A stretch of DNA of 64,000 nucleotides from Paracyclopina nana. Its lineage: Eukaryota; Arthropoda; Copepoda; Cyclopoida; Cyclopettidae. Shown here piece after piece: positions 4,094 through 28,423 of the stretch. The first letter of the stretch is position 1, and each line of letters starts with the position of its first letter. Both the position numbers and the translations under genes were made by a program. The stretch is taken from contig JAGUCH010000002.1 of NCBI GenBank assembly GCA_019096065.1, forward strand, positions 15,884,501 to 15,948,500. The letters run 5' to 3'. The notes beneath the pieces were generated by a model. It saw nothing but the letters and a program-made list of their open reading frames with translations. It was not told the DNA's origin and searched no databases.

Positions 4094-4146
4094 AAATTGT
4101 AAAATGTAAACAAAGCAGAAAAGGCTGGTTCAATTGTCAAATAAAT

Positions 4147-5751
4147 ATGTTAAATGGCAACGATGTATACAATTTGGCCGACGGGTGGCTCGAGCTCGAG
4201 AGTGACCCTGGCCTGTTCACGCTCCTCCTTGAGGACATGGGAGTTCCAGACGTTCAAGTTGAGGAGATTTATGACCTACAAGCCGAAAAGCTAGCAGGGG
4301 ACTCTCGCGGCAATGACGTGCTTGGCTTCATTTTCCTATTCAAATGGATCGAAGAGCGACGATCAAGGAGGAAAAACATTGACGAGGAGCATTTGTACGT
4401 CAAGGATCCGGACGTGGTCAATTCCATCTTTTTTGCCCAACAAGTGGTGCCCAACAGTTGTGCAACTCATGCACTTGTCTCAATTCTCCTCAACTGCCCA
4501 AACCAGGATATTGGACCTGCCTTGCTGGATCTCAAGTCACACGTGGATGGCACCGATTCAGAGACAAAAGGACTGGCCATTGGCAACTGCCCTCGCCTGG
4601 CAGCAGCCCACAATGCTCATGCTGTCCCACGTGCCAGGCGAAGAACTGAAAAGCCCAACTTGGCATTGCCCACGGTCGTCACGGGCAGGAGTGAGGCGTT
4701 TCACTTTGTCAGCTATGTCCCCATCAATGGGAGGCTTTACGAGCTGGATGGTCTGAAGCCATACCCAATTGACCACGGCCCTGTGAGTGAAGATTGGACA
4801 GAGAACTTCAGGCAAGTCATCACCGACAGACTTGGCATTGCCACTGGAGGAGAGCCATATCACGACATTCGATTCGCCTTGATGGCTGTTGTGCCCGACA
4901 GGAGGAAGGATTGCTTGAAGAGGCTTGACATGCTCAAGACGAACAAGATGATTGTCGTCGATGCTTTGACACAGCTTGTGGAGCAGCACGATGGCAAAGC
5001 CATCGAAGTGAAGCAAGAGGAATCTGAGGAAGAAGCTATGGAACAATTGGAGATGGATGTCACTCGCGTCCTCAAGGAGAGGAATGCGGTGAAGAGGAAG
5101 AAGATAGGGAGCAGAACGTCTTCACTGGATAGCTCTTGTCCGCCAGGATCTCCATTCCAAAACAATCCACAGCTCATGTCTCATGATTATGCCAAATCTC
5201 CTCTTATGGAGGAAGAGGATGGCGACGAGGGCTCAGCTGAGGAAGGGAACAAATGTGACGAGGTGAAGTCCGAAGAAGCGGGAGATGAAGAGGAGACAGC
5301 TGCCAAAAGTGAAGAAGATGAGGGCGACGCCATCAGCACATTTGACCCTCGTACCAAGCAGCTTTTCGAGCCTCATAGATTTGCACCCAAAGACCTCTTG
5401 ACTCTTTTGAAGACAATTGAGGCGGACATTCATTCATGCCTAGATATCCTCAGGGATGAAAATGACAAGCGCAAGAAGCACAGAATTGATGACAGTCGCA
5501 GAGTTCACGATTATGACGAGTTCATCACGACCTTTTTGGCAATGCTGGCGGAACGAGGTCATTTAGGCGACCTCTTGGAGCACAGCATGAATTTCAATAT
5601 GCCAGCCAAGAAGAAACCAGTCAATTTGAATTCCAGCAACGGTTCCACGAATGGAGGAAGCTCTTCCTCAATGTCAAAGACCAAGAGTAAAATGTTGGCT
5701 GCCAAGAAGCATCTGCAGAAGAGCAGAGGAAGGCCAAAGAAGAAGAAGTGA
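4147..5751 (+). CDS. BAP1: Ubiquitin C-terminal hydrolase BAP1 (calypso)
   Basis: This 534-residue single-exon protein is the nuclear deubiquitinase that, with an ASX partner, removes ubiquitin from histone H2A (the PR-DUB complex). The UCH domain (about 13-240) has all key elements: [14 protein letters not shown] at the start, catalytic Cys105 in PNSCATHAL, His186 in EAFHFVSY and Asp201 in YELDG, followed by PYPIDHGP. A long acidic linker (about 280-400) precedes the C-terminal ULD-type helical region with [18 protein letters not shown] near 455-475. The tail is Lys/Arg-rich, as in BAP1, and fits DNA binding and nuclear import. The size is closer to insect calypso (about 470) than human BAP1 (729). 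The start adds about ten residues before the conserved WLELES. The ORF follows the coiled-coil ORF by 103 bases. Confidence 0.93.
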
Positions 5752-21539: not shown

Positions 21540-21784
21540 GTTCCTTTATTATCTAAGAGGTAGAACCTGCAGAGCTCCTTAGTGAATGTAGTAAATAGGA
21601 AGCTGGGTTAAGCCCAGGGCTTTCTCAATTTGAGTGATTTGGAACACATTGGTGGGAGGACAAGTGCTAGGCCACTTCCTCCTGATGGTTGTGCTGATTG
21701 GGAGGATTGGTACACTGTCTACCCCAAAACATTGTGTATATGCCATTAGGCTTAGTCCCAACCAGAGTGTTTTTACAGAGGATT

Positions 21785-22025
21785 TGTTGGAACCCCGTTT
21801 CCATTTACCTTGTATTCTCATCAGTATATTCTCTTGTTCATTACTGAGTTTAGCACACGTGTCAGCTTTACTTGCTCAATAAAGCGACAGAACCGAATCC
21901 GATACCAAACGAACGAGTTGTGCTTTTTATATATCTTTTATTTCATTTCTTTGTATGAAGCTACAAAGGCGGTAGAACTTTGAAGCTTCCATCGCAGAGG
22001 CCGCGGTAGTCGTCCTCTCGAAACA
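21785..22025 (+). repeat. 5' LTR (241 bp)
   Basis: Starts TGTTGGAACCCCG and ends TCGAAACA. A TATA-like TTTTTATATATCTTTTATTT lies near 21920-21945. The last 46 bp are identical to those of the other two LTR end copies. Confidence 0.85.
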
Positions 22026-22027
22026 TC

Positions 22028-22045
22028 TGGTGCAAGCGACCCGGG
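22028..22045 (+). promoter_or_regulatory. Candidate tRNA primer-binding site
   Basis: TGGTGCAAGCGACCCGGG begins two bases (TC) after the 5' LTR end, and TGG pairs with the CCA end of a tRNA. I could not match the rest to a named tRNA. Confidence 0.5.
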
Positions 22046-22731
22046 ATTGCAGGCAGCCTCGCGGCTGCCCAGGTAACCGCCGGTACCTTTAGATATATGT
22101 AATGCCCAGGAACTCGGGCACAACACCTGCAAAAAACACTGGTTCTCTCTAGAAAAAATGGGGGGAGCCATTTTGAAGTCGTCTTGCTTCAAATTCATGT
22201 TGGCCTCGCGGCCAACAATTCCCTGTCATGTCTTATTTTGCGTTCTGATTTTGGCTTCATGGATTCCAAGGATTGGAAGAAGGTCAAGACCTCCACCTGT
22301 ACCACCTTGGACAAAGCATGCTTAAGTTTGCTAGCATCAAATGTTTGGCAGCTTTGCAGCTGCCAAAAACTTAGCAAGCTACCATGACCACCTCAAAAAA
22401 CTGAACAAATCGACCAATGACGCTATGGGATCACCCTTCTTAGCTGATGTTCAAGATTGGACCTGGAGAGGGGAGACTGACAAAAGAAGACAACAGCCGC
22501 GGGGCTGCTGCTTGCTTTGCTTTTGGCATTTTTGAGTAATATATGACTAAATGCTGTATAAGTCAGGCCTCAGCAGTCACCTGCAATATGCTCAGACGAT
22601 TATAGAAAATTGCTACAAATAACTCAAACGAAAGTGATGTTCTGGAAGTGGTGGACAAGGATGCTTTATTGGACTTAGATTCACATGGCCATTCATCTGA
22701 CTCTCGCTCTTCAGCTTCCCACAATATTGAT

Positions 22732-23407
22732 GCCCAGGACAAGGGATCTCCGTCTTGCAGCCAAAGCCGATCGGGGGCACGGGCTGTGGGAAATCTCATC
22801 AAGTCCCCAATGGTGCTGTCGCAAGCCCAGCACATTCAATGTGTGCTTTTGAAGAGCTTGAGATGGTGGAGATGGGCCGACACCTGGCCGCCAACCGCGA
22901 GGTTGGCGCTGCAGGAGTTTCTGTCCAGCCTTCTTTGCCATTTTTCTTTATGTTGCAATGAAGAGAAAACAGTGGTACAACCGGAAATAATGTCTGCCCC
23001 ATCCTCCATTGAGGCTGGTGATTCTTGAATCACTGTCCCAAATGATGCCACTGCTGGTCACTGCCCAATGCCCAGGACGAGTTGAGGATCTCCGTCTTGC
23101 AGCCAAAGCCGATCGGGGGCATGGGCTGTGGGAGTTCTCCTCATCAAGTTCCCAATGATGCTGTCGCCAGCACAGCACCTTCAATGGATCTTGAGGTTAT
23201 GGAGATGGGCTGACGTCTAGCTGCCAACCGCGAGGTTGACACTGCAGCAATTTCTGCCAGGGTTTTGGGCCTGCCCCCTTCTTTGCCATCTTTCTTTATG
23301 TTGCAATGAAGAAACGGGAGAAGTGGTATAACCAAAATGTCTGACTCATCCTCCAGTTAGGCTGGTGATCTTGGAATCACTGTCCCAAATGTTGCTGCTG
23401 ATCAACA
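22732..23407 (+). repeat. Tandem duplication of ~338 bp inside the retrotransposon
   Basis: Unit one (from 22732) and unit two (from 23070) both contain GGATCTCCGTCTTGCAGCCA, AGCCGATCGGGGGCA, GCTGTCGC-AGC-CAGCAC, GCCAACCGCGAGGTTG and TTTCTTTATGTTGCAATGAA in the same order. They differ by scattered changes, so the duplication is old. Confidence 0.75.
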
Positions 23408-23452
23408 CCCCTTGGCCTCAATGCCAGCATCACTGCTGACATCCCTACCCAC

Positions 23453-26045
23453 GGGCATGTCTAAATAAGGCAAACAAGGGCAAACAAGGGCAAACAAGGG
23501 CAAACAAGGGCAAACAAGGGCAAACAGGGGCAAACAAAATAAAAATGCATCACAAACAAAGGCAAACAAGGGCAAACAAAGGCAAACAGAGGCAAACAAA
23601 ATAATCATGCATTGGTAACGAGGGCAAACCAAATAAAAATGCATTGCACACAAGGACAAACATAGGCAAACAAAGTAAGACCCAAAGTGAGGCTCAAAGT
23701 AAGGCCAAGTAATGTGAATCTTCTTATTTCAATCCATTCAGAGTTTGTTTGCACTATTTCCTTCATTGTGCAGCAATGTTAGAATAATTAAGGCTTTTAT
23801 TTCTTCCTTTTTGGCTTTGAATCATGAGAATGAAATCAGAGAGGACCAATCAAGTCACCTTAGGGCAAATGCAGCTTGCAGAAAGTTTGTTTGCCCCATA
23901 ATCGACTTTTCACTTTTGCGCGTAAAAAGCGAAAAGTGCAAAAATGCTGCATTATTGAGCAAGTCAACTTTTTCTGGCCTTTTTGGCCTTCCACACCAAG
24001 GTAAGACTCAAGGGCAGTCCCAGTAACATGAAAGAGGTTATTTCCATCCCTTCAGAGGTTGTTTGCGCCTGTTGAAATTTGTTTGCCCTATTTCCTTAAC
24101 TGTAAACTGATGTTATGGGCAAACAAATGATTAGGGCCATTATTTCGGCCTTTTTGGCCTTGAATCATGAGAATGAAATCAGAGAGGACCAATCAAGTCA
24201 CTTTAGGGCAAATGCAGCTTGCTGAAGGTTTGTTTGCCCCATAATCGACTTTTCACTTTTGCGTGTAAAAAGCGAAAAGTGCAAAAATGCTGCAATATTG
24301 AGCAAGTCAACTTTTTCTGGCCTTTTTGGCCTTCCACACCAAGGTAAGACTCAAGGGAAGTCCCAGTAACATGAAAGAGGTTATTTCCATCCCTTCAGAG
24401 GTTGTTTGCGCCTGTTGAAATTTGTTTGCCCTATTTCCTTCACTGTAAACTGCTGTTATGGGCTAACAAATGATTAGGGCCTTTATTTCGGCCTTTTTGG
24501 CCTTGAATCATGAGAATGAAATCAGAGAGGACCAATCAAGTCACTTTAGGGCAAATGCAGCTTGCTGAAGGTTTGTTTGCCCCATAATCGACTTTTCACT
24601 TTTGCGCGTAAAAAGCGAAAAGTGCAAAAATGCTACAATATTGAGCAAGTCAACTTTTTCTGGCCTTTTTGGCCTCCCACACCAAGGTAAGACTCAAGGG
24701 AAGTCCCAGTAACATGAACCAGGTTATTTCCATCCCTTCAGAGGTTGTTTGCCCCTATTGGAATTTGTTTGCCCAATTTCTTTCACAGTGTTGTACTGTT
24801 ATGGGCAAACAAATTATCTATATTTTTATTTTTTTTTATTAGGGCCATTATTTTGGCCTTGTTGGCCTTGAATAATGTAATTCTCAATGTAAGACCTTTA
24901 GAGACCTTTAAAAAGGCTTAAGTAAAAGCATAAATGATTTGTTTGCCCCTAACAGGAAATTGGGCAAACAAATTCTAATAATGGCAAACAGCCTCTGATG
25001 GAACGGAAATAAGCTGACTCATGTTACTGGGACTTCCCTAGAGTCTTACCTTGGTGTGGAAGGCCAAAAAGGCCAGAAAAAGTTGACTTGCTCAATATTG
25101 TAGCATTTTTGCACTTTTCGCTTTTTACGCGTAAAAGCGAAAAGTCGATTATTGGGCAAACAAACCTTCAGCAAGCTGCATTTGCCCTAACGTGACTTGA
25201 TTGGTCCTCTCTTATTTCATTCTCATTGCTCAAGGCCAAAATGGCCATGATAAAAATATAGATAATTTGTTTGCCCATAACAGTACTACACTGTGAAAGA
25301 AATAGGGCAAACAAATTCCAATAGGGGCAAACAACCTCTGAAGGGATGGAAATAACATGGTTCATGTTACTAGGCCTTACTTTGAGCCTTACCTTGGTGT
25401 GGAAGGCCAAAAAGGCCAGAAAAAGTTCACTTGCTCAATATTGCAACAGTTTTGCACTTTTCGCTTTTTGCGCACAAAAGCGCAAAGTCAATTTTGGGCC
25501 AAACAAACTTTCAAGATGCTTCATTGGTCTTTTGTCATGTCATTTACATTATTCAAGGCCAAAAAGGCCATGATAAAAGAATAGATAATTTGTTTGCCCA
25601 TAACATTACTGCACCGTGAAAGAAATAGGGCAAACAAATTCCAATAGGGGCAAAAAAACTCTGAAGTGATTGAAATTAGCTGATTCATGTTACTAGGCCT
25701 TACTTTGAGCCTTACCTTGGTGTGGAAGGCCAAAAAGGCTAGGAAAAGTTCACTTGCTCATTATTGCAGCAGGTTTGTACTTTTCGCTTTTAACGCGTAA
25801 AAGCGGAAAGTCGATTATGGGCCAAACAAACTTTCAGGATGCTTTATTGGCCCAAAACTGACTTTATTGGTCTTCTGTCATGTCATTCACATTTTTCAAG
25901 GCCAAAAAGGCATAATAAAGACCTAAATAATTTGTTTGCCTTTGTTTGCCCTTGTTTGCCTCTGTTTGCCTCTGTTTGCCCTTGTTTGCCTAGTTTGCCT
26001 TGTTTGCTGTGGTTTGCCTTTGTTTGCCCTATTTAGACACTACCC
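23453..26045. mobile_element. Foldback transposon, copy 1 (about 2.6 kb)
   Basis: The termini GGGCATGTCTAAATAAGGC and (reverse complement of the right end) GGGTAGTGTCTAAATAGGGC are inverted. The element interrupts retrotransposon sequence between duplicated CCCTACCCAC (23443-23452 and 26043-26052); because the element itself ends in CCC, the duplication is 7-10 bp. Next to each end are runs of the 10-mer GCAAACAAGG. Then come about 340-bp units (starts near 23690, 24000, 24342, 24685), then inverted copies of the same unit to the right end. A unique spacer lies at about 24800-25060. There is no transposase ORF. Long inverted arms made of tandem subunits define foldback elements (FB, Galileo). 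Confidence 0.8.
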
Positions 26046-26353
26046 TACCCACTTTTGACAAGCTTATTGGACTGCCCCAAAAGAAGGAGATGAAGAACAA
26101 GATGCCTTGCCGCAAGTTGTAAAAACGATGCATTTGATCACCGCTGCTATGGCAATGACCATATTCCATGTCCTTATGCTCGTTTTGGAGAATAATTTTG
26201 CTTAATTGGCTCCCTTCAACTTTCATTGACATGATGGTCTCTTTCGAGGTCTACAATGGGTTTGGAGGCAAGGCGTCCATCATCACTTTCAAATTGGCGT
26301 TTGATGCAAGCCACTGCTGAGGGCGAGCTGTAAGTTAGGCCTCGTGGCCTAAC

Positions 26354-26364
26354 TTGGGGGAGGA
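26354..26364 (+). promoter_or_regulatory. Polypurine tract of the LTR element
   Basis: TTGGGGGAGGA lies directly before the 3' LTR (TGTTGGAA). This is the usual site for plus-strand DNA priming in Copia-type elements. Confidence 0.65.
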
Positions 26365-26613
26365 TGTTGGAACCCCGTTTCAATGTACCTTGTATTCTCA
26401 ACAGTACATTCTCTTGTTCATTACTGAGTTTAGCGCAAGTTTCAGCTTATTATCTCAATTTAAAGCTTCAGTTAAGAAACCGATACCGAACGAACAAGTT
26501 GTACTTTTTATATATCTTTTATTTGATCATTTATCTTTTTGTATGAAGCTACAAAGTCGGTAGAACTATGAAGCTTCCATCGCAGAGGCCGCGGTAGTCG
26601 TCCTCTCGAAACA
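26365..26613 (+). repeat. 3' LTR, main part (249 bp)
   Basis: A full-length LTR matching 21785-22025, ending TCGAAACA at 26613. It is followed not by the target duplication but by TC and 21 T residues, the reversed A-tail of the inserted mRNA copy. Confidence 0.85.
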
Positions 26614-28371
26614 TCTTTTTTTTTTTTTTTTTTTTTACAAGAATTTTAGCCTGCTTTAACCTTACATACTAATAGTTACATAAGCCCTAGACTGAGGTAT
26701 CATCTTTATTTCACATCTTCTTCATGTTAATACTGATATTAATCACAGCTACAAAGATCACATATACCTACTAAATGTTCCCTACTGTCGCAGATTAGGC
26801 GGCACTGGCATGCAATGTAATAATCTGCCAGACGGACGCTCTGCTTGTTGATTCATCACATAGAATTTGTAATTTGTTGTCAGTCAGTTGTTTGGGCTAA
26901 GTGGAACACACTTAGAGTTCCCTCTCTGCAGCGTCGGGGGCATCATCGTCGTCAGCTTCCTCCGACTCAAAGGCGGCAATTGCCTCTGCATACGCAGAGT
27001 GCATGGTGGCATTGTCCGCTCCTAGGACCTGCCTGAAGGCAACCCAGACCTCTTCGGCCACGAGGCCAGATGATCCAGCAGAGGAAAGGAACTTCCTGGT
27101 TCTTCCTCCAAGGGTAACCCTGACGCCTCTGACCGATTGGCAGACAAGGTCGAAATCGGCGTCATAACCATCCTTGTTTTTATAGACATATTCAGTCTGC
27201 CTCTGCATAATCTTTGTGATGTGAGGGCTCTTCGCAAGGGTGGTTTTGCCAAGCCTGGCCACGATCATGCTCCCCATAAGAGCGATGTGGGGACCAACAT
27301 CGATGATCCTTCGTTCGCTTCCAGTGAGGAAGGCTGCCCCAACATGGTAGTAGGCTCTCAAATCCTGCGCACCTTGGCCCCTGATGGCTTTAACTTGAGC
27401 CACGAGGTCCTTGAGGCTTGCAAGTTCCGGGTAGAGGAACATGAGCCTATCATTTGCGAGCTTCTCCGCAGCTGCCATGACAACTGCAGCTGGGGCCATG
27501 CCCGCTGGGAATCCAGTTGCCCTGAGGCGGACATCCTCTGCCATCACTATTGCAGGAGCGATGGGATTGACCACATTCACCTGCCTGAGGTTCTGGATGC
27601 CCAGGATCCTTGGGCAACTGATGGTACACGCCCATTTCCCGATGATATGGATGGCCTTCACCTGGGCGGCCGGGTTTTGCTGCTCCCAGAGAGACAGCGC
27701 ATTGGCAACTTTGGCAATGTAGCCCACCAGCATACTGAAGCTTTGTCCAGTGTGGTGGTTCACTGCGAAGAAATTCACCTTAGTGCCCATGAGCACAGTG
27801 AGAGCCCTCACCTGCTCATCCTTGGTGATCCACTCGCCCATGCGTCCCATGTTGTTATCCATCCTGTCCACATAGTCGTTTGGATAGGCGTCCTGGACAG
27901 CGAGCCAGCCACTAGTCGGGGTGAGATCAGCACCCTCGGTGGCGATTAATCCATATCGAACAGCCGCAACTGCTGCATTAACCATGATTTTCTGATAAGA
28001 AATCATGTTTGGGCAGACTCGCTGGCTGATCTGATAAGCCCTGGCGGCAGCGCACTTTGCCATGTTCTCGACATGGGTTGCCGTAACGCCGCCTGGGGGC
28101 CTCAAATCGCTGGTACTAAATTGAAGCATATCTACTTCATCGATGCCAGCCTCACTGGCATGGGCGATGCCGAACCCGACTTCGCCGTTGATCGCAGGCA
28201 AAATCAATTGGCTGATTGGAGTTGCCGCCATTTTGTGATGGAGGATTTAGCAGCACGTGAATATCAAATCGAACCGAGATCTGACGCAAACAAAAACGTC
28301 GTCTTAAAACTTTTTAAACAGTTGTGCTCCCGAGACTGCTTCGTACAAACTGTTAAGGACGTTTGTTCACG
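26614..28371 (-). mobile_element. Retro-copied A-tailed mRNA inserted in the 3' LTR
   Basis: Read on the minus strand, the insert has about 140 bp of leader (28371-28232), a 439-codon ORF, about 275 bp of 3' UTR and a 21-residue A-tail (26636-26616), then the bases GA. It is intronless and bounded by a 47-bp perfect direct repeat (26567-26613 and 28372-28418) that is the LTR end. These are marks of reverse transcription of a polyadenylated mRNA. Confidence 0.85.
26912..28231 (-). CDS. Endogenous nucleoprotein-like ORF from a negative-strand RNA virus (tentative)
   Basis: An intact 439-codon ORF in antisense to the host retrotransposon. The protein is Ala-rich and mainly helical, with no signal peptide or membrane segment. 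A central block of conserved aspect (about 105-330) is followed by an acidic C-terminus with a run of Asp (EEADDDD). Size, composition and a monocistronic, A-tailed, intronless mRNA origin fit the nucleoprotein genes of arthropod mononega- or jingchuviruses, which are the viral genes most often captured in arthropod genomes. I recognise the general type, not a family, and cannot exclude another captured cellular or viral mRNA. The ORF has no stop or frameshift, unlike the retrotransposon around it. Confidence 0.55.
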   Translation of the reverse strand: MAATPISQLILPAINGEVGFGIAHASEAGIDEVDMLQFSTSDLRPPGGVTATHVENMAKCAAARAYQISQRVCPNMISYQKIMVNAAVAAVRYGLIATEGADLTPTSGWLAVQDAYPNDYVDRMDNNMGRMGEWITKDEQVRALTVLMGTKVNFFAVNHHTGQSFSMLVGYIAKVANALSLWEQQNPAAQVKAIHIIGKWACTISCPRILGIQNLRQVNVVNPIAPAIVMAEDVRLRATGFPAGMAPAAVVMAAAEKLANDRLMFLYPELASLKDLVAQVKAIRGQGAQDLRAYYHVGAAFLTGSERRIIDVGPHIALMGSMIVARLGKTTLAKSPHITKIMQRQTEYVYKNKDGYDADFDLVCQSVRGVRVTLGGRTRKFLSSAGSSGLVAEEVWVAFRQVLGADNATMHSAYAEAIAAFESEEADDDDAPDAAEREL

Positions 28372-28418
28372 TATGAAGCTTCCATCGCAGAGGCCGCGGT
28401 AGTCGTCCTCTCGAAACA
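28372..28418 (+). repeat. Third copy of the LTR end (47 bp)
   Basis: Identical over 47 bp to 26567-26613, and followed directly by the GGATT target duplication. This is the true right end of the integrated element. Confidence 0.9.
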
Positions 28419-28423
28419 GGATT

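Follow-up and report, generated by a model that had tools for sequence, protein, structure and literature searches.

How does a complete copy of a messenger RNA, likely one of an RNA virus, come to lie in an animal chromosome exactly two bases past the end of a retrotransposon's long terminal repeat (LTR)? The question is raised by a locus of the copepod Paracyclopina nana within the 64,000-nucleotide stretch of DNA analysed here (the window; C2:15884501-15948500, where C numbers denote contigs of a 92-Mb assembly in 10 contigs). The window also holds an MCM2 gene, whose product shows up to 95% identity to environmental proteins and 78-80% to those of named decapods; among the 120 best of 7996 hits are, in addition, a fish protein (80% over half the length) and one of a tick (69%), from which a crustacean host is probable. 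Between two copies of the pentamer GGATT, this locus holds, in this order, a 5' LTR, a retrotransposon interior, a 3' LTR, the bases TC, a run of 21 T, an antisense open reading frame (ORF) of 439 codons, and the last 47 bp of the LTR once more. With a probability of about two in three, we think that the LTR-virus unit arose when plus-strand strong-stop DNA of the retrotransposon jumped onto the poly(A) tail of the messenger. The parts of the locus, for which the coordinates of a preliminary description of this DNA hold, are the following (window positions):

21780..21784, no strand: left copy of GGATT, the 5-bp outer target duplication, identified from the sequence; 5-bp duplications are also present at the elements on C8, C3 and C6
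21785..22025, plus strand: 5' LTR, a hybrid of U3 of type B (C1-like) and R-U5 of type A (C8-like), with the crossover at about 21875-21886
22026..22027, plus strand: TC spacer from the LTR to the predicted primer-binding site (PBS), identical at C8, C3 and C6
22028..22045, plus strand: predicted PBS, TGGTGCAAGCGACCCGGG, placed by position and its TGG start
22028..26364, plus strand: interior of a non-autonomous BEL/Pao element, broken at about 23453-26040 by a nested fold-back element
26365..26613, plus strand: 3' LTR, a hybrid of U3 of type A and R-U5 mostly of type B, with the crossover at about 26454-26467
26614..26615, plus strand: TC from the LTR end to the T-run, identical on C1
26616..26636, minus strand: poly(A) tail of the copied messenger, read as 21 T
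26637..28371, minus strand: antisense copy of the likely viral messenger
26912..28231, minus strand: 439-codon ORF, unbroken from ATG to stop
28372..28418, plus strand: repeat of the terminal 47 bp of the LTR (its U5 end), identical to 26567-26613
28419..28423, no strand: right copy of GGATT, the outer target duplication

The junctions and the 5-bp duplication can be read directly from the bases. The insert is a full-length messenger copy that starts two bases past the exact LTR end, and the 47-bp repeats (26567-26613 and 28372-28418) are identical and both terminate on the LTR terminus CGAAACA, as the preliminary description had observed. It had also equated the TC at the joint with the spacer between LTR and PBS; positions 26614-26615 indeed match 22026-22027, and the same spacer recurs in the elements on C8, C3 and C6. 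In the established retroviral scheme, U3-R-U5-TC is the plus-strand strong-stop DNA, copied up to the tRNA primer, and the two spacer bases are present at the end of the cDNA only until integrase trims them. GGATT flanks the whole unit, as would equally be predicted for a messenger inserted into an LTR already in place.

Is this joint a single accident? Genome-wide DNA and protein searches found the insert at five loci: the window, C1, C2b (C2:2384283-2386015), C4 and C7. On C1, an LTR end (15482192-15482366) continues via TC into the 3' region of a second viral copy, so that both loci carry a direct LTR-mRNA junction at the position that reverse transcription explains, U5-TC. Exact occurrences of CTCTCGAAACATC number six in the 92-Mb genome (85 if up to one mismatch is allowed), and they comprise four 5' LTR-PBS junctions and the two virus joints. 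The preliminary description had proposed to look for chimeric LTR-insert molecules elsewhere with the same TC junction; the C1 locus is one, and its viral sequence is divergent. Window and C1 viral parts are 11-13% different overall, LTR parts 2%. By codon position, 7/203, 4/202 and 62/202 sites differ at first, second and third positions, respectively; the stretch of 3' untranslated region (UTR) adjoining the joint differs at 13/116 sites (88.8% identity) and the 5' UTR at 33/127, a count that takes in very divergent first bases. In the LTR, by contrast, 1/78 sites differ at the U5 end and 3/100 in U3 (Fisher's test: third positions 62/202 against LTR 4/178, p = 6e-15; 3' UTR 13/116 against U5 1/78, p = 0.009). 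Because the viral parts are this far apart and the LTR parts are nearly identical, the two viruses probably diverged before joining the LTR, and by this comparison of sequences window and C1 are probably two captures with one joint. As the joint recurs in two of the five viral loci, chance insertion at one base of a few elements is not credible.

The far side of the C1 locus differs from that of the window. Past the viral 5' end lie 41 bases between BLAST matches, followed by a piece of element interior that corresponds to window 23390-23452 and 26049-26148 and, last, by an R-U3 in inverted orientation. The viral part begins about 15 nt short of where the tail starts in the window, and the locus has neither a T-run nor a direct repeat at the joint, that is, neither the A-tail nor the target duplication of target-primed reverse transcription (TPRT) by a long interspersed nuclear element (LINE). 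This arrangement fits jumps of a reverse transcriptase better than target-primed insertion. The viral part is interrupted by a nested, satellite-like fold-back element of about 8 kb (about C1:15473338-15481463, with units of about 180 bp).

Which element supplied the LTR? An autonomous relative on C6, 11.3 kb long with its LTRs, encodes Peptidase_A17 (the Pao peptidase; 6e-34), RVT_1, rve and DUF1759, and its LTR is 82% identical to the window 5' LTR; since this element encodes Pao peptidase, reverse transcriptase and integrase domains, the LTR family of the window is, by domain content, BEL/Pao, and the presence of this autonomous element in the genome favours the proposed mechanism. The C6 element also has a third long ORF past pol (L036:1970-5500, minus strand; 1176 aa), in an envelope-like position and unmatched in Pfam. 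The LTR family is a small one. Genome searches found ten close U5 ends, with copy counts for the family being lower bounds: three in the window, two each on C8, C3 and C6, and one on C1. Four lead into a PBS, two into virus and three into host DNA, and one is that of the 47-bp copy. With a longer LTR query, copies that are partial or diverged also appear at C2:1680181 and C1:10885570. In all four elements (window, C8, C3 and C6) the 5' LTR is followed by TC-TGGTGC; their LTRs have TG...CA ends and they lie in 5-bp duplications, read by eye as GTTTA, AAGAA and GTTGG on C8, C3 and C6. The copy at C2:1680181-1680476 (L038:1681-1976) is a palindromic insertion, in which part of U3-R-U5 is fused to an inverted U3-R, so that U3 stands at both ends, between the flanks GCCTT and GCCTC (4/5 match by eye). 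This suggests that aberrant cDNAs of this LTR family do get integrated.

The preliminary description took the whole retrotransposon and the virus to have been integrated in one event. This part of its proposal is not supported. We typed the LTRs at 18 diagnostic columns that separate type A (C8) from type B (C1). In the columns as far as 90, the 5' LTR of the window is B in 9/9 and the 3' LTR A in 9/9; in those from 104 on, the 5' LTR is A in 9/9, and the 3' LTR is B in 6/9 and A in 3/9. The hybrid nature of the LTRs is thus plain from the typing, and they look like the reciprocal products of one crossover near CTCAATAAAGC. With one crossover shared by two reciprocal hybrids, a full-length type-A element would have recombined into an older type-B LTR. 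The window element is non-autonomous, with no ORF of at least 150 aa in its interior, the first 1426 bp of which are 99.93% identical to the C8 element; at about 23453-26040, a nested fold-back element of about 2.6 kb with tandem repeats of 10-bp and 343-bp units and inverted arms is absent from C8. The interior was probably added later and not together with the virus, and we infer an older unit GGATT-U3-R-U5-TC-virus-U5(47)-GGATT, lacking interior and PBS.

How could such a unit form? A BEL/Pao particle might also have held a viral messenger. Plus-strand synthesis would copy U3-R-U5-TC and run off the template at the end of the primer; the 3' end of this strong-stop DNA would then shift to the poly(A) tail of the messenger and be extended through to its 5' end. 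Such an end-to-end jump would account for the boundary, the TC, the orientation and the completeness of the copy. The enzyme would next return into U5, at a point 47 nt short of the LTR end, which would yield a product bounded by U3 on its left and by U5 on its right and hence a substrate for integrase, and integrase would insert this short LTR-virus molecule at GGATT. Later, a full-length type-A element would recombine into the LTR by a single crossover, giving the two hybrid LTRs. The template switching that the preliminary description had favoured thus gains support for the LTR-virus unit from a second LTR-TC-virus locus seemingly too divergent to stem from the same event, and loses it for the full-length element. 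The particle, the strong-stop intermediate and the order of the jumps are what we infer.

Several points weigh against this account. The C1 LTR is truncated on its left, about 860 nt of virus are absent around the nested element, and it is possible that the T-run and the some 15 nt of 3' UTR missing there were removed by a later deletion. The LTR comparison behind the independence of the C1 capture spans 78 and 100 bp, and gene conversion between LTRs could mimic such independence. The right half of the 3' LTR is of type B in only 6/9 columns, with type B defined by C1 alone. Three search patterns for the gene of a primer tRNA fitting the predicted PBS gave no match, one of them having its T-loop two bases out of register. 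The window copy itself carries the marks of LINE-type TPRT, a tail of 21 T and a 47-bp repeat, although this repeat ends on the LTR end and TC intervenes. Finally, the viral copy on C7, which lacks an LTR, has an A-tail and a one-base filler and lies between perfect direct repeats:

L033:2158-2329 and 4104-4275 (C7:4312158-4314275): 172-bp direct repeats flanking the A-tailed viral copy

From the C7 copy, LINE-type machinery seems also to copy these messengers and to make long duplications. The 47-bp repeat of the window could be of this kind and proves nothing by itself. The preliminary description had cautioned that many retrocopies with such long duplications would weaken the case for template switching; C7 lends this caution some weight, as one copy. 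A length of 172 bp is unusual for a target duplication. We considered whether the repeat might be a mobile element and rejected this, as it is single-copy apart from one 72% match elsewhere.

These observations favour a rival that we nonetheless regard as unlikely, in which LINE-type machinery inserted the polyadenylated viral messenger by target priming into an existing LTR, the 47-bp duplication and the TC filler being coincidental. The window has the textbook poly(A) tail, full-length copy and direct repeat, the C7 copy is of just this kind, and integrations of Borna disease virus with A-tails and target-site duplications have been ascribed to LINE-1 in passages of a review (PMC3205384). 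However, this explanation needs a nick exactly at the LTR end plus a filler equal to the spacer, although the LTR-TC string occurs exactly only six times in 92 Mb, and then an apparently independent second insertion at the same base on C1, without T-run or direct repeat. Nor do the A-tailed copies C2b and C4 have a direct repeat beside the T-run: T-runs of at least 14 number five in the window and 35 scanned loci, four of them in viral copies, and a direct repeat is adjacent in the window and C7 and absent in C2b and C4. The genome has 152 + 307 overlapping matches to runs of 20 T. Around three non-viral runs, out of 22 distinct ones counted by eye among the matches listed, 1.5 kb of sequence each showed no adjacent duplication, though the copies may be longer; at one of the three, a 15-bp word is shared between a site 182 nt before the run and a site downstream.

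Could window and C1 instead descend from one LTR-virus chimera, with LTRs since homogenised by gene conversion and a viral ORF under selection? The common joint and the common LTR type B would follow naturally, and between C2b and C4, too, 10 of the 15 ORF differences are synonymous. Conversion would, however, have had to halt at the joint, with 31% difference at third positions and 11% in the 3' UTR stretch against 1% in U5, and the right-hand junctions of the two loci are wholly different. We consider such a single capture quite improbable.

About as improbable, in our view, is that the insert is the messenger of a host gene. In favour of a host gene is the failure of the 439-aa protein to reveal a sequence relative. 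Searches of a protein collection with residues 1-300 and 168-439, each of which scored 7996 candidates sharing most words, returned nothing at E ≤ 0.01 / E ≤ 1; Pfam (searched also with the two halves of the protein) and PDB returned nothing at E ≤ 10, and residues 1-300 had no match in IMG/VR, none of the collections being specific to RNA viruses. The insert DNA matched no phage record, and none was expected to. Structure models of the protein are too poor for use (mean pLDDT, the predicted local distance difference test, of 37.3 and 37.6). Against a host gene, there are only five loci, and genome-wide DNA and protein searches recognised no intron-bearing parent among them. Moreover, the copies differ from that of the window mainly at third codon positions: the rate of synonymous change (dS) is 0.71 between window and C1 at a rate of non-synonymous change (dN) of 0.022, dS of C7 against C2b, C4 and the window is 1.7-2.7, and the remaining pairs other than C2b-C4 are saturated, with dN at 0.02-0.11 across these pairs. 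Only C2b and C4 are close (dS 0.034, dN 0.005). Mostly synonymous, virus-like divergence within one genome, together with the failure to find a parent gene, is as expected of an endogenous RNA-virus element; because it fits separate captures from a fast-evolving exogenous source, we read the insert as likely an RNA-virus messenger. The copied messages share similar 5' ends, at 140 nt upstream of the ATG in the window and 142 nt on C7. The 439-codon ORF is unbroken and of equal length in four of the five copies (window, C2b, C4 and C7) and is interrupted on C1; as all four full-length copies keep it, the integrations should be recent or under selection.

The loci C2b (L031, C2:2384248-2386141) and C4 (L032, C4:2558705-2561050) are 98% identical copies inside a DNA element with terminal inverted repeats, whose ends read TGTCGACGTC... 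and whose 5-bp duplications differ (GCGCT and TGAAT). A cut-and-paste element thus appears to have moved the viral gene to a second site. The synonymous share of their ORF differences compares with some 23% of sites being synonymous, and their 5' region is more different than the ORF; the ORF may have been under selection since the duplication, or the copies may derive from two viral strains.

A last alternative, target-primed insertion where the 5' LTR of a complete element meets the PBS, with a duplication that included TC, and a subsequent exchange between the duplicated U5 end and the 3' LTR that deleted the interior and restored LTR-GGATT, would account for TC without template switching and for the exact right boundary, and C1 does retain element interior past the virus, but it is very unlikely, as it requires a rare exchange across about 47 bp, leaves two insertions at the same base unexplained, and does not suit C1, which has no duplicated U5 end and no T-run and terminates in an inverted LTR.

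What would capture by strong-stop DNA mean? The entry into animal chromosomes of RNA viruses that lack a reverse transcriptase has mostly been deduced from A-tails and from transposons lying close by. At the present locus the joint can be read base by base, and it occurs a second time in the genome. The succession of LTR end, spacer and viral 3' region points to a plus-strand strong-stop DNA intermediate, which makes the route testable, and if it is true, the joint would be a germline record of an RNA virus's entry into DNA. Relative to the presumed LTR promoter the viral gene runs antisense, a geometry relevant to the origin of antiviral small RNAs. More tentatively, BEL/Pao strong-stop DNA could be a recurrent primer on poly(A) tails that hooks whole viral messengers antisense to the LTR promoter, each capture then being an LTR-driven antisense gene and a germline source of antiviral small RNAs; we put this forward as a possibility, and a doubtful one.

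Finally, we would like to set this locus beside known systems, as they are described in passages of the sources cited. Endogenous viral elements of crustaceans are on record (PMC4573495). In the literature searched, which covered few subscription papers, we found no viral joint of strong-stop DNA with a poly(A) tail, and we do not claim priority; what is new to us relative to the known cases is that a poly(A) tail is joined to the strong-stop end, and that this joint recurs. The recombination of lymphocytic choriomeningitis virus (LCMV) with an intracisternal A-type particle (IAP) element (Geuking et al.), which the preliminary description had named, also joined RNA-virus sequence to an LTR retrotransposon and led to integration. 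That recombination was observed in mice under infection and in cultured cells, and according to a review (PMC3205384) endogenous LCMV elements are not known; here, by contrast, two genomic copies share a single exact joint, in which the 3' region of a messenger follows U5 and its spacer. In LTR-mediated retroposition (Tan et al. 2016; reviewed in PMC5408686), template switching likewise brings a messenger into the cDNA of an LTR element, which integrase then inserts. The switches described there occur at microsimilarities and often copy part of a messenger, whereas here the switch would lie at the end of strong-stop DNA and lead onto poly(A), and the window copies the whole messenger.

Closest in its carrier is AeBunya1, one of the nonretroviral integrated RNA virus sequences (NIRVS) of Aedes, which lies within a Pao-Bel element: an arthropod, viral sequence within BEL/Pao, and template switching as the suggested route (PMC5497376). 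The passages of that paper give neither a base-level joint nor a recurrence to one base, both of which are present here. In Anakin, too, a BEL/Pao element took up the gene of a negative-strand virus, in that case a chuvirus glycoprotein (PMC7642597). Anakin's gene is envelope-like, lies inside the element and was spread by retrotransposition; the presumed older unit here has no interior, holds its viral gene antisense, and shows no co-amplification of the gene with the LTR. The bornavirus elements of LINE-1 type, lastly, are A-tailed copies of viral messengers with direct repeats (PMC3205384). The C7 copy fits this description and the window has both marks, yet window and C1 differ from these elements in being joined to LTR-TC, and C1 is so joined without A-tail or repeat.

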